DNA of 8,192 nt from a bacterium (GTDB lineage Bacteria > JALSQH01). The stretch lies in the NCBI GenBank assembly GCA_026985515.1, contig JALSQH010000203.1, positions 1-8,192 of the forward strand, written 5' to 3'. Within the stretch, counting starts at the first letter, position 1. Each line of letters starts with the position of its first letter. The notes beneath the pieces are model-generated. The model ran no database searches, was not told the origin of the DNA, and saw only the letters and a list, made by a program, of their open reading frames with translations. Positions 440 to 5,463 of the stretch are shown here, piece by piece. Made by a program: the position numbers and the translations under genes.

Positions 440-2509
440 ATGAGGAGTAAACTTGGCTGGAAATTCTCAGCAACAATTATAATCTCAGTGGTGGTAATTT
501 TCACCTTTTACACCCTTCTGATTTTGAATATCTTTTCGAGACAGTACCGGGTGCTTATTGATGATAAAGCGAAAAATATATCAAAATTTCTGCTGGATCC
601 CATAAGGAATCAGCTCAACATGACAGATGGGGATCTACAGAGCTTATCTGCGTTTGCTCTTGACCTTAAAAAGACCCTGGAGAGAAACAGGGAACTTTCA
701 ATAATTGAAATTGTGGATCCCTCCGGAACCATTGTTTCTCATCCTGACCTAAAGTACATAGGAAAGAGAATATCTTCCTCTCTGATATCTCTTCTTTCCT
801 CAGGGAGAGGTGAAAAGGTTCTTTACTCCGGTACGATCTACCACTATTTCATACCAATTGTTTATGCTACCAAGGGAGTTGTTGCGTATCTGCATCTTGG
901 ATTCAGTACTTCCTTTATCAAGGAGGGAAGAAGGAAAATCATTTTCCAGCTTATCATAGTTACAATACTTTCCATTTTGTTGATTTATTTCATCGTTTCT
1001 TACATGGTGAGAAGAAATATTATGGAACCGATATCTCTTTTGAGTGAATTTGCATCATCTGTGTCAAAGGGAGACCTCACAGGCAAAGTTGAATTGGAAA
1101 CCCATGATGAGCTTGAGGATCTTGGAAGGGCGTATAATGAAATGGTTGAGGGATTGAGGAATCTTGTGACCAAGGTCTTTATGCTTTCTGATGAAATTCA
1201 CAGGCTTGTTTTCAAAACACAGGAAGATTTTCAAAATTTGAAAACTCGCTCCGATGAGCAAACAGAAGTACTTCTTGAAGCAGATAAGCATCTGGAAAAA
1301 ATAAAGACTGGAACTGTTCACATCACAGGTCAGATCGAAGAACTCTTCCTTACCACTCAGGAAACGAGTTCCTCTGTGCTCGAATTGGGTAGTACCAGTG
1401 AAGAAATCAAAAACAATATGAACAAACTTACACAGGCGATTTCTGAAATATCTGCGGGAATTGATGAGATGGCTGCTTCCATAAACCAGGTAAATAACAA
1501 TCTTCAGAGAATGGTTTCTGATGCTGATGAGATGACAACTTCGGCGGCAGAAATAAGTACCTCAATTGAAGAGGTTGAGAGGATCACAAAGCACAACAAT
1601 GAGCTGACAAAGGAAGTCAATGAAAATGCACAGGAGGGAATGGAGTCAGTTAAAAAGACCGCAGAAGGGGTGGCAAAGATCAAGGAATCAGTTTCAGAGA
1701 TAGCCAGGGTCATAGAGAAATTACAGGAAAGATCACAGCAGATTGGCACAATTACGATAGTGATAAATCAGGTGGCCGAAAGGACGAATCTTCTTGCTCT
1801 CAATGCCTCAATAATTGCAACACAGGCTGGGAAACATGGAAGAAGTTTTGCCGTGGTTGCAGAGCAGATCAGGAATCTATCACAGCAGGTATCCAGCAGT
1901 ACCAAGGAAATAGAATCGATAATTAAGGGCATACAGGAGGAAATTGAAACAGCGGTGAAGCAGGTGCAATCTGCCCTTAAGGACGTGGCAGCGGAGGAAT
2001 CGCTGACAGCTGTTGCTGAAGAGAGACTGAAAAGAATTATGGAATCTTCACAGAAAACTCTGGAGATGAGCGAGGTAATTTTTCAGGCTATTAAGGAGCA
2101 GACATCAGGTAACAAGTTAATATGGGAGGCCGCTGAGAGGATAACCTCATCTGCGCACGAGCTTGCCAATGCAATTGAGCAGCAGGCTGCCTCTTCGTCA
2201 CAGATTGCAAGAGCAACTGAAGAGGTTGGTGAGTTGAGTACAATGATAAATCAGGCTGCATCTCAGCAGGCTGAGAGCAACAGAGTGATAAGTGATGCTA
2301 TTGAAAAAATCAATAATTCCCTTGAAATTATAAAGGAGACAAGTAAGAGTCACTCCATTGAAACGGAGGAGGTTTTCAACATCATTCACAAAAATCTGGA
2401 ACTCATCAAGGAAAATTACAGGTTGATGTCTGATGTTTCCGGTCAGGTTGAGAATTTACAGCAGAAAATTAAGGAACTTGTTAAGGATGTGAGAAACTTC
2501 AAGGTTTAA
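440..2509 (+). CDS. Methyl-accepting chemotaxis-like transducer with single Cache-type sensor, HAMP and divergent signalling tip
   Basis: Membrane receptor of 689 residues. Visible order: short cytoplasmic N-terminus, TM1 about 11-32, an extracytoplasmic sensor about 33-166, TM2 about 167-190, HAMP about 191-245, then a long alpha-helical coiled coil to the C-terminus. The sensor contains IIEIVDPSGTIVSHPDLKYIGK (86-108 region), the pattern of small Cache domains. The hairpin region is about 445-485, with TNLLALNAS and FAVVAEQIRNL clearly of MCP type. Each arm is about 210 residues, against about 125 in E. coli Tsr, so the stalk is long. Candidate methylation site: E580-Q581 in NAIEQQAASS. No CheR-tethering pentapeptide is present (it ends NFKV). 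Tip residues differ from the canonical set (see findings). The start ATG at 440 has an AGGA at 430-433 with 6-nt spacing. The ligand is unknown, and no che genes are in the window. Confidence 0.9.
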   Translation: MRSKLGWKFSATIIISVVVIFTFYTLLILNIFSRQYRVLIDDKAKNISKFLLDPIRNQLNMTDGDLQSLSAFALDLKKTLERNRELSIIEIVDPSGTIVSHPDLKYIGKRISSSLISLLSSGRGEKVLYSGTIYHYFIPIVYATKGVVAYLHLGFSTSFIKEGRRKIIFQLIIVTILSILLIYFIVSYMVRRNIMEPISLLSEFASSVSKGDLTGKVELETHDELEDLGRAYNEMVEGLRNLVTKVFMLSDEIHRLVFKTQEDFQNLKTRSDEQTEVLLEADKHLEKIKTGTVHITGQIEELFLTTQETSSSVLELGSTSEEIKNNMNKLTQAISEISAGIDEMAASINQVNNNLQRMVSDADEMTTSAAEISTSIEEVERITKHNNELTKEVNENAQEGMESVKKTAEGVAKIKESVSEIARVIEKLQERSQQIGTITIVINQVAERTNLLALNASIIATQAGKHGRSFAVVAEQIRNLSQQVSSSTKEIESIIKGIQEEIETAVKQVQSALKDVAAEESLTAVAEERLKRIMESSQKTLEMSEVIFQAIKEQTSGNKLIWEAAERITSSAHELANAIEQQAASSSQIARATEEVGELSTMINQAASQQAESNRVISDAIEKINNSLEIIKETSKSHSIETEEVFNIIHKNLELIKENYRLMSDVSGQVENLQQKIKELVKDVRNFKV

Positions 2510-3092
2510 GGATTTCAAAGTTACCGGCAATTCTTCTGAATTTTTCTTCTATTTCTGGCGAAATATTAATGTTATCATGGATGATGAGCTGGATACTCCT
2601 GCTACCTTCCAGCAGATCAGCGGTAAGAGAGAGATCTTCTTCTGAGAAATGGCTGCCTGCGTGAATGACTATTTTCTGTTCCCCCGCCCAGTTCTGAAGG
2701 GATGTTATGGAGGCTATGAAGAGGTCAGGATTGACTTTCTCTCCACAGAAAGAATCGCATTTAGTTACTGGTGCCACCAGGTGCAGTTCCACATAATCCA
2801 CCAGCCACTCATACAGTACGCTTCTCAATTTTGAAGGGTAGGTACCGTTGGTTTTAATCTTTATGAAATCAACCTGCTTTCTTATTCTTCTCAGAAGAGG
2901 TATAATGTCCGTTGCAAATGGCTCCCCGCCTGCAATTTCCAGCTCATCTATCTTTTCCCCCGCATCAATGAGGGTGGGAAGCGACCCCCCTTCATTCCTC
3001 TCCTTCCAGCAGAAACAGTATCTGCATTTCAGATTACAATCTTCCACTCTCCACTTTATTCCCCCCCTTCCCTCTGTGACGGTAGTTTCCAT
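2499..3092 (-). CDS. Small radical SAM protein (NrdG / PFL-activase-like), 197 residues
   Basis: Probable radical S-adenosylmethionine enzyme. With the ATG at 3092 as residue 1, the 4Fe-4S motif CxxxCxxC is C19, C23, C26 (CNLKCRYCFCW). It is followed by GGEP at 55-58 (SAM amino-group contact) and KTNGT at 80-84. The short length and the later DYVELHLVAP segment resemble the activating enzymes of glycyl-radical proteins, but no glycyl-radical enzyme gene is nearby and the substrate cannot be named. Extra cysteines sit at C28 and at C112 and C116 (CDSFC), possibly further metal ligands. A TTG at 3098 is an alternative start that would overlap the previous stop; I prefer the ATG, two bases after that stop and preceded by GAGAG. 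The C-terminus overlaps the 3' end of the MCP gene by 11 bp, tail to tail. The family is firm, the reaction unknown. Confidence 0.85.
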   Translation of the reverse strand: METTVTEGRGGIKWRVEDCNLKCRYCFCWKERNEGGSLPTLIDAGEKIDELEIAGGEPFATDIIPLLRRIRKQVDFIKIKTNGTYPSKLRSVLYEWLVDYVELHLVAPVTKCDSFCGEKVNPDLFIASITSLQNWAGEQKIVIHAGSHFSEEDLSLTADLLEGSRSIQLIIHDNINISPEIEEKFRRIAGNFEILKP

Positions 3093-3094
3093 CT

Positions 3095-3658
3095 TCAACT
3101 CTCTTCGAGAGCTTCGGCCCTTTTATACTTTCTGAGATACCACCACATCGCTATGAAGATGACTATGAGGACAATACTGAAGATGTTCATCAGCGTTCCC
3201 ACAGGACTGGCAGGAGAATTCAGAGGTACAGCTTTCCCCTTGAGGAATTCTTCCCTTGTGCCAACAAAGTAGTATCTCTGGAAGAGAAGCAGAATGATCA
3301 GCAGTTCCATTATGAGAAAGTAAACCACACTTATCCAGTAGACAACTTTGCTCCTTTCCGAAAGCACCATTCCAAGCAGAAAACCACCAATAAAGGGAAA
3401 GTAGTAAAGCACAGAAAGGATGTAGATCCAGCCCCAGATGTTGAGAGAACTCTTCTCCGGGAAATACATCCACATCCAGTCAGGAGCAAGGAAATAGGAC
3501 CAGATTACAGAAATCACAAAAATTGTGGAAAAGATAAATCCAAAAATGAATGCCCTTGATAAACATGGAGCTTTTTTCTCCTTCTCCCTCACATAAGGGC
3601 CGAAGAGCAATCCAAAGATTATCATTACTGGTGTGTCAATCAGGAATGTTTCAACCAC
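3095..3658 (-). CDS. Hypothetical integral membrane protein, about five TM helices
   Basis: I do not recognise a family. The 187-residue product is strongly hydrophobic, with likely membrane segments near residues 5-22, 35-57, 73-98, 105-127 and 155-175. It is rich in Trp, Tyr and Phe. A basic loop REKEKK lies at 24-29, and the C-terminal tail is charged (LRKYKRAEALEES). There is no lipobox or recognisable catalytic motif. The start is a GTG at 3658, because an in-frame TGA lies just upstream. The purine tract AAAGGGG abuts the GTG with no normal spacing, so the ATG at codon 12 (3625) cannot be excluded, though it lacks a ribosome site. The stop is two bases before the radical SAM start, so the two genes form a translationally coupled pair. 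That it works with the radical SAM protein is inference from this spacing alone. Confidence 0.75.
   Translation of the reverse strand: MVETFLIDTPVMIIFGLLFGPYVREKEKKAPCLSRAFIFGFIFSTIFVISVIWSYFLAPDWMWMYFPEKSSLNIWGWIYILSVLYYFPFIGGFLLGMVLSERSKVVYWISVVYFLIMELLIILLLFQRYYFVGTREEFLKGKAVPLNSPASPVGTLMNIFSIVLIVIFIAMWWYLRKYKRAEALEES
3099..3111 (-). promoter_or_regulatory. Small hairpin covering the ribosome site of the radical SAM gene
   Basis: On the - strand the bases form CTCTC-GAA-GAGAG, a 5-bp stem with a 3-nt loop. The 3' arm GAGAG is the only Shine-Dalgarno-like sequence for the ATG at 3092 (6-nt spacing). Because it lies inside the end of the membrane-protein gene, ribosomes finishing that gene would open the stem, consistent with translational coupling. 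The stem is short and could be chance. Confidence 0.3.
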
Positions 3659-3715: not shown

Positions 3716-5410
3716 TCACATAAACAGATCTTTCAGGTCTCCAAAAGGCTTACCTCCATATCCCTCTCTGTTTAGAACGTTTATATAGTTTGTTATTTCA
3801 TCAATTACTTCTTCTGATGGTTTGAAGTCATAGTGTACACGGCTGAGAAATAGTTTTACCTCTTCCTCTGGAATTCCCATTAACTCATAGCTCATCGCTG
3901 CTGCTTCTTCCCTGTGTGCATTTATCCAGTTTATAGCATCCAGAGTTTCTTCAAGAAAAAGCTCTACTATTGAAGGATACTCCCGGAGAACTTCTCCCTT
4001 AAATACGACTCCAGCATTTGGAAGATTCCCCTGTTCAGGGAAAATTTTTTTCCAGAGGTCCCTGTATGCAAATGCTTCTCTTACTTTACCTCTGCTTTCA
4101 AAGATGGCAAAACTTGCTTCTGGCTCTCTGAGGAGGCCAGCTTCAATTTTCCCCTTAATCAGCATGTCTTTTATTTCATCAGGTCTGCCAAAAGGGTGTC
4201 CAAATTTAAATCTGAAGTCTCCGGGATCGTATCCCAATTGCCTCAAAATGAACAGTGTTACTGCATATGGGGGTGCAGTGTTAATAAGGGGGAGATATAT
4301 TTCCTTTCCCTTGAGATCATCGAAGCTTCTTATCTCAGGGTTGTTTGTCATCATGAAGAAATTATCCCAGAGAACTATTGCCTTCATTTTTATATCCAGT
4401 TCTTTCATGAAGAGTTTCGCAACTGCTGCGACAGCAGAGAAACTTATGTCTGCCTTTTTGTTAACTATCCAGCCGAGATGTTTTTCAGTTTCCCTCCAGA
4501 TTTTAAGTTCTTCTATTTTGATTTTTCTCATCAATCTATCAGACTGAAGTAACCTCATTATGAGTGGATAAACCACAGGAGTGGCTGATTGAATCACCAG
4601 CGGTATTCGACCCTCTTCAATCTTTTTCTTCTTTTTTTCCTGTGGCTTTTTGAAGAAGTAAACATGATTTTCAAGTGGTCCCTTTTTTTCTATGTGTACT
4701 TCAAAGCCCATGGGTTCAAGCATATTGATAAGCGGTCGTGGAACAAAGTACTGAATTATTTTGAATCCCTCACCTTCTGGAAGATCATGAGCTTTTTTTA
4801 TGATGGCAGAAAAAGGATCCTTTCTCCATCCTCTTACATCCATAACTTCAAATTCCTCTTTTCGGTCAAGCCAGTTTTCAAAGTCTTTTTTCTTCCATTT
4901 AACATAAACTTCGTATTCCTCTGGTCCTTTTTCTTCTATGTAAATCTGGTAGCCTTCCTCTTTCAGCAGATTTACCAGTGGTGCGGGAAAAAATGAGTTA
5001 ACAATTTTAAGTACTTCACCTCTGTGCAGGGATTTTACTCTCTGCATTATTTCAACGAAAAAGAAATCCTCTCTTTCTCTTACATCTTCTACAATTATTT
5101 CTCTTGCATCCTCAAGCCAATCAGGTTTTTCTTTTGAAATTTTCAGTTCTTCTTCTTTGATACAATCGGGAGCAATTTTCATCAATTCTTTTTCCATGCC
5201 AATCTTACTGTTGAGGGTGTGGAGAAGTTCGCAGATTGAGATTTTTCCTATCCTGGCAATATCGCCAACAGTTGCCCATCGTGCCACTGTGTTGTAGATA
5301 AATTTGTTGTTGAGTTTCTGAAACTTTGGCGAAATTTTTATGAGTTCCTCCCTAAGCTCCGGATATTTCTCAAGCATTTCCTTCACTTTGGTTGATGCTG
5401 TTATGACCAT
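3716..5410 (-). CDS. Fusion protein: DUF1858 - DUF2249 - DUF2249 - SsuA/NMT1-type substrate-binding-like domain, apparently cytoplasmic
   Basis: A 564-residue multidomain protein. Residues 2-70 match DUF1858 (VKEMLEKYPELREELIKISP, then a TVARWATVGDIARIG helix). Two DUF2249 units follow, about 106-173 and 188-254. Each opens with DVR (D109, D191), has a P-x-P-L-[IV]-N-[LM]-L core (142-149, 224-231) and ends in an IE-[EK]-KGP beta region. A lysine-rich linker (259-263) leads to about 268-555, a type-2 periplasmic-binding fold like SsuA/NMT1: ADISFSAVAAVAKLF, SFDDLKGKEIYLP, FILRQLGYDPGDF and AGLLREPEASF. No signal peptide, lipobox or TM helix is present, so it should stay in the cytoplasm. No ABC permease or ATPase is nearby. 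The ATG at 5410 has AAGGAG (5424-5419) with 8-nt spacing. DUF2249 and DUF1858 often occur with hemerythrin or nitrogen-oxide proteins; a link to such ligands here is inference. Domain calls are firm, function unknown. Confidence 0.85.
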   Translation of the reverse strand: MVITASTKVKEMLEKYPELREELIKISPKFQKLNNKFIYNTVARWATVGDIARIGKISICELLHTLNSKIGMEKELMKIAPDCIKEEELKISKEKPDWLEDAREIIVEDVREREDFFFVEIMQRVKSLHRGEVLKIVNSFFPAPLVNLLKEEGYQIYIEEKGPEEYEVYVKWKKKDFENWLDRKEEFEVMDVRGWRKDPFSAIIKKAHDLPEGEGFKIIQYFVPRPLINMLEPMGFEVHIEKKGPLENHVYFFKKPQEKKKKKIEEGRIPLVIQSATPVVYPLIMRLLQSDRLMRKIKIEELKIWRETEKHLGWIVNKKADISFSAVAAVAKLFMKELDIKMKAIVLWDNFFMMTNNPEIRSFDDLKGKEIYLPLINTAPPYAVTLFILRQLGYDPGDFRFKFGHPFGRPDEIKDMLIKGKIEAGLLREPEASFAIFESRGKVREAFAYRDLWKKIFPEQGNLPNAGVVFKGEVLREYPSIVELFLEETLDAINWINAHREEAAAMSYELMGIPEEEVKLFLSRVHYDFKPSEEVIDEITNYINVLNREGYGGKPFGDLKDLFM

Positions 5411-5431
5411 AACTTTAACTCCTTTTTTGAA

Positions 5432-5458
5432 AATACTTTACCAAATTAGTAAAGTATT
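5432..5458. promoter_or_regulatory. 27-bp perfect palindrome (10-bp arms, 7-nt spacer), probable operator
   Basis: AATACTTTAC (5432-5441) and its exact reverse complement GTAAAGTATT (5449-5458) flank CAAATTA. It lies across the spacer and -10 of the promoter for the fusion gene, so a dimeric regulator bound here would block RNA polymerase. The AT-rich look with a central CAAATTAG core is reminiscent of Rrf2-family sites, but that assignment is only a guess. As a terminator for the upstream tatD gene it would be weak, because the stem has only two G-C pairs and the following T-run is short. Confidence 0.65.
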
Positions 5459-5463
5459 GTCAA
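5435..5463 (-). promoter_or_regulatory. Predicted sigma-70-type promoter for the DUF1858/DUF2249 fusion gene
   Basis: On the - strand: consensus -35 TTGACA (5463-5458), a 17-nt spacer, -10 TAAAGT (5440-5435; four of six matches). Predicted initiation is near 5428, leaving a leader of about 18 nt that holds the AAGGAG ribosome site. The overlap with the palindrome supports regulated transcription separate from the SCP2/ADH/TatD operon. Confidence 0.6.

Follow-up and report, generated by a model that had tools for sequence, protein, structure and literature searches.

A fusion of DUF1858 and DUF2249 domains to an SsuA/NMT1-type binding domain, very probably cytoplasmic and a candidate ligand sensor

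The 8,192-nt stretch of contig JALSQH010000203.1 analyzed here (hereafter, the window) carries on its minus strand, at positions 3,716–5,410, an ATG-initiated ORF of 564 amino acids. The ORF list, Pfam, NCBIfam, and a profile search together place in it a DUF1858 domain, two DUF2249 units, and a type-2 periplasmic-binding protein (PBP) domain of the SsuA/NMT1 type, in that order. Specifically, DUF1858 (residues 3–63; 5,222–5,404) matches Pfam above the curated cut-off (E = 2.6e-13), as do two stretches for DUF2249 (E = 9.9e-20), which map to about residues 109–170 (4,901–5,086) and 190–252 (4,655–4,843), while the PBP domain takes up the last ~296 residues (about 269–564; 3,719–4,606), all on the same strand. 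In the five genomes tested for it (G000, G050, G101, G110, and G202), the fused protein is the sole DUF2249 protein.

The PBP assignment needed more than single-sequence searches, in which Pfam returned sub-cut-off matches (Phosphonate-bd, 0.0064; NMT1, 0.04) and NCBIfam SsuA_fam scored E = 2e-10 at 40.4 bits, below a curated cut-off (163.5) that ABC-type substrate-binding protein (SBP) relatives likewise fail to reach. A profile built from 22 relatives (312 positions) matches PDB 3hn0 over profile positions 25–310 (E = 6e-38) and also SsuA 2x26 (E = 2.6e-10), so that the fold is secure at the sequence-profile level; the sequence-only reading of a PBP fold behind DUF1858 and two DUF2249 units is thereby borne out. 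The same profile matches the NrtC/CmpC proteins weakly (E = 0.002–0.006), and it matches THI5/THI13 and the MqnA-like AF1704 structure 1zbm, again more weakly than it matches SBPs. The fused protein thus shares the SsuA/NMT1 fold (closest solved structure, 3hn0; SsuA itself, 2x26) across the whole domain and keeps the family-invariant EP, W, and P positions. In the alignment it departs from ABC SBPs by a 4-residue insertion, which creates a PFGRP motif that is invariant, and by REPEA where they have PEPF. The domain contains zero cysteines and no metal-ligand pattern. A single-sequence structure prediction of the domain (pLDDT 38.7) was kept out of the fold searches.

SsuA/NMT1 SBPs carry a signal peptide and work with a permease and an ATPase; the fused protein has neither. 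Its reading frame is closed 9 codons upstream of the ATG, which leaves no room for an upstream signal peptide, and peak N-terminal hydropathy reaches 0.64–0.91 in fused proteins vs 1.9–3.4 in ABC-type relatives, all aligned members of which have the hydrophobic N-terminus that fused proteins lack. No other ORF in the window resembles an ABC component, and no permease or ATPase adjoins the fused gene in any fused locus read. On these sequence features the protein is very probably cytoplasmic. Both absences, of an export signal and of ABC partners in the window, had been proposed from the letters alone and hold up. Of the two observations that had been named in advance as contrary evidence, neither was made: the window protein hides no signal peptide, and its full-length homologues are not ABC components.

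Upstream of the gene lie a ribosome-binding site (AAGGAG, 5,419–5,424, minus strand, 8 nt before the ATG) and a putative sigma-70-like promoter on the same strand (TTGACA-17-TAAAGT with TG before the -10, 5,435–5,463), a consensus match at 10 of 12 positions. A 27-bp perfect palindrome, AATACTTTAC-N7-GTAAAGTATT (5,432–5,458), runs from the final base of the -35 across the promoter spacer and the -10. When the intergenic region (61 bases) was shuffled 5,000 times with dinucleotides preserved, 43 shuffles reached an arm of ten bases, and the exact core is unique in the window genome. The palindrome is a possible operator or repressor site. The HcpR motifs quoted in PMC1274295 (GTAACnnnnGTTAC and others) mismatch it, and HcpR was set aside as its reader. 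A search upstream of the fused homologues did not recover the window palindrome. In those of family f50 (L051, L052, L053, and L054), the -10 is closely followed by a different palindromic element, which is GATAAAAATTATC-like and to which the G202 upstream region shows no clear match. Rfam finds no riboswitch in any fused locus or ahead of the ABC operons read, with the exception of one TPP element in L040; as this lone element lies about 1.3 kb beyond where the SBP gene ends, we abandoned the idea of a thiamine link.

The fusion is rare but recurrent. It is present in 6 of ~490 distinct genomes searched, as full-length relatives that are 40–47% identical and fall in three phylum-level lineages, and none of these homologues is an ABC component. 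Within the lineage of the window genome (a 2.36 Mb assembly in 268 contigs), the gene is absent from one compared relative of the same family. Family f50, of another phylum and, we think, a member of Thermotogota, has the fusion in G050, G099, G101, and G110. Its three intact copies are 41–43% identical to the window protein along the whole length, and the G099 copy (L054:8,634–10,510) carries a frameshift that separates its first part from the second DUF2249, through either an assembly error or pseudogene formation. G202, the sole sampled genome of its phylum, also carries a full-length relative. The phyla of G202 and G480 were represented by one and three genomes, respectively. A second sweep for relatives covered nearly the same genomes and returned no further fusions, while a genome-contig collection yielded one distant SBP only and a viral-contig collection no match. 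In a maximum-likelihood tree of the PBP domain, all fused proteins form one clade (support 98/98) that stands beside the ABC binding proteins, not inside them, which suggests that the fusion probably arose once.

Between the window protein and its homologues, DUF1858 is 45–51% identical, and the second DUF2249 is 49–56% identical to those of f50; the PBP domain, at 44–45% among fused proteins, is as conserved as these two, which argues for selection on the binding domain. In f50 the first DUF2249 has degenerated (17–23% identity, no Pfam match), and the G202 protein is missing it. Only two cysteines occur in the window protein, Cys60, which is invariant and lies within DUF1858, and Cys83 (codon at 5,162–5,164, minus strand), both ahead of the first DUF2249. 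A cysteine census and alignments place them at identical positions in all five intact fused proteins compared. The four intact homologues contain the equivalents of this pair and four ferredoxin-ligand cysteines, and no more; the f50 and G202 proteins start with a single-cluster [4Fe-4S] ferredoxin (Fer4_13, E = 1e-13 to 1e-15). The window protein lacks this N-terminal domain, so the ferredoxin is not essential to basic function. Both cysteines are absent from DrpB of Thermus thermophilus and from the other DUF1858–DUF2249 proteins aligned. Strict retention of the pair in otherwise cysteine-free proteins suggests that it serves as thiols, as metal ligands, or as a disulfide.

DrpB is the closest known counterpart of the N-terminal half. 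It consists of DUF1858 and two DUF2249 units and resides in the cytoplasm; nitrate reductase requires it both for control in response to nitrate and for full activity (PMC6282519). The fused protein shares this order and is about 32% identical to DrpB over residues 2–162, but continues with the PBP domain where DrpB ends after its second DUF2249; DrpB has no PBP and no ferredoxin. Their genomic settings also differ: the drpB locus we retrieved sits directly behind narGHJI, in the nar operon, whereas the fused gene does not. Others have shown that DUF2249 genes are induced during haloarchaeal denitrification (PMC11218638) and that NnrS and Hcp belong to core NO-responsive regulons (PMC1274295). 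In the window genome, neither Hcp nor hemerythrin was found, so a part in nitrogen-oxide metabolism is only a possibility there.

No gene neighbor of the fused gene is conserved across the fused loci read. Downstream in the window (2,499–3,658), the gene for a membrane protein of 187 aa overlaps at its end with that for an NrdG2-like radical SAM protein of 199 aa, and this pair is not kept beside the fused homologues. The neighborhoods of the stand-alone PBP relatives, which are exported ABC binding proteins, come mostly from one collection (plasmid records). One clade of them adjoins NnrS in every genus inspected, seven in all (Sulfurimonas, Nitratiruptor, Aliarcobacter, Arcobacter, Azospirillum, Paracoccus, and Neisseria), in operons of binding protein, permease, and ATPase that often include a TonB receptor and a Crp/Fnr or Rrf2 regulator. 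This uncharacterized SsuABC-like importer travels with NnrS in denitrifier-rich genera (L076, L077, L078, L079, L080, L103, L104, L105, and L108). A Paraclostridium SBP relative is flanked by genes for Crp/Fnr, hemerythrin, ferredoxin, Hcp, NifU, and a DUF1858 protein. However, the link between SBP and NnrS is not universal, as NnrS is absent from the neighborhoods of the SBPs of Haliovirga and Pseudomonas nitroreducens; no nitrogen-oxide genes occur in the three Thermotogota-type ABC loci read, which hold the best-scoring SBP relatives, and the fused clade is not nested within the NnrS-linked clade of the PBP tree. Nitrogen-oxide links exist for both halves of the protein, though of unequal strength. 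The nitrogen-oxide association of DUF2249, raised in the sequence-only reading, is nonetheless firmer than first stated, given the architecture of DrpB and the NnrS operons of one PBP clade.

Other surroundings were recorded along the way. The SBP operon of L072 (4,775–10,143) follows a NifX-like (Nitro_FeMo-Co) gene, two genes for NUBPL/MinD-like ATPases (one confirmed by Pfam to have 4Fe-4S domains, the second recognized by eye), and a DUF59-like gene. In L057 (8,015–11,685), an SBP-permease-ATPase operon of a PBP relative lies between hydE/hydG-like and hydF-like genes (by eye), that is, within an [FeFe]-hydrogenase maturation cluster (hydG-hydE-hydF). A DUF1858–DUF2249 gene in L070 (8,034–10,016) is followed by genes for a DUF438-hemerythrin protein and a PAS-like protein.

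We tentatively favor a cytoplasmic ligand sensor, in which the PBP domain would bind a small molecule and switch the DUF1858/DUF2249 module through thiol or Fe-S redox chemistry. Under this model, a PBP domain from the family that serves SsuABC-like importers would have lost its export signal and been joined once to a DrpB-like DUF1858–DUF2249 module. Its clamshell may close on an intracellular small molecule, for which a nitrogen-oxide-related anion or product is our leading guess, and closure would alter the state or the partners of the module. By analogy with DrpB and its proposed targets in nitrate respiration, the module might act through protein-protein contacts on regulators or maturation factors, and the Cys60/Cys83 pair, together with the [4Fe-4S] ferredoxin of the f50 and G202 homologues, could couple the response to redox state. 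There is precedent for an SBP-like regulatory unit inside the cell in the C-terminal domains of NrtC and CmpC, from cyanobacterial nitrate and bicarbonate transporters (PMC6603209). Those domains, however, are attached to an ABC ATPase and control its transporter, while the window protein has DUF1858/DUF2249 as partner and no ATPase domain, and no transporter takes part. The bolder version of the model, a new class of redox-gated cytoplasmic sensor in which a captured importer domain reads a nitrogen-oxide- or sulfur-related ligand with the help of a dithiol and an optional ferredoxin, seems to us rather unlikely as it stands.

The choice between sensor and enzyme, left open in the sequence-only reading, is one that the sequence does not decide, though it leans toward the sensor. 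An uncharacterized enzyme would use the PBP cleft as its active site, as do THI5 and MqnA/MqnD, which likewise place an SBP fold in a cytoplasmic protein, and would reduce a bound sulfur or nitrogen compound with electrons from the ferredoxin and the two cysteines. The ferredoxin fused in the homologues, the strictly conserved dithiol, and the profile matches to THI5/THI13 and 1zbm are all consistent with such a role. Yet with no cysteine in the PBP domain, the iron/cysteine site of THI5 is missing, the THI5 and MqnA-like similarities are weaker than those to transport SBPs, no pathway genes adjoin the fused loci, and the window protein lacks the electron-donor ferredoxin. Because the THI5 cluster is absent and the ferredoxin is lost in the window protein, we rate an enzyme below a sensor and consider it improbable, and the enzyme analogy first drawn from the letters has lost ground. 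Membership of known families fared no better: THI5/HMP-P synthase was rejected on the lack of PBP cysteines, MqnA/MqnD on a PF02621 (VitK2_biosynth) score of 15.5 bits against a cut-off of 26, and TusA sulfurtransferase on E = 0.068 and the absence of the active-site cysteine from both DUF2249 units. A third possibility, less probable still, is a carrier or chaperone whose PBP and DUF2249 domains would hand a metal cofactor, haem, or an Fe-S precursor to client enzymes. We raise it since in DrpA and DrpB mutants nitrate reductase is produced but shows little activity (PMC6282519) and DUF1858–DUF2249 genes adjoin DUF59/MIP18-type assembly genes in three loci (L073, L074, and L082); the Fe-S ATPase and NifX-like surroundings of L072 and the hydrogenase-maturation surroundings of L057 point the same way. 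These Fe-S-type settings of SBP relatives are single cases, however, the PBP domain has no metal-ligand pattern, and the fused DUF2249 units lack, in the alignment, the conserved histidines reported for DrpA-type proteins.

Two more mundane accounts are weaker. That the protein is an ordinary ABC binding protein, mis-annotated or exported by an unusual route, draws on the family to which its PBP domain belongs and on Thermus DrpA, which is periplasmic without a recognizable signal (PMC6282519). We judge this very improbable: DrpB itself is cytoplasmic, ferredoxin and DUF1858 occupy the N-termini of the homologues, the start site leaves no upstream space for a signal peptide, and transporter genes adjoin no fused locus. 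Nor is the fusion a product of assembly or gene calling, although the window comes from a fragmented assembly and the G099 copy is frameshifted. The same fusion recurs intact in independent genomes, including contigs of >2 Mb in G101 and G110, with the position of the linker and conserved residues retained, and this refutes an artefact.

DUF1858 and DUF2249 are widespread and often tied to nitrate or NO metabolism, without an assigned biochemical function, and their natural fusion to a small-molecule-binding fold thus offers a handle on that function: whatever the PBP domain binds should reveal the signal to which the module responds. It could also account for the uncharacterized ABC importers that accompany NnrS in denitrifiers, and the fusion is a further, rare instance of an importer binding protein put to use inside the cell. 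Elsewhere in the window (440–2,509), a coaE-like gene fragment is directly followed by the gene for a methyl-accepting chemotaxis protein whose sensor region is single-cache-like.
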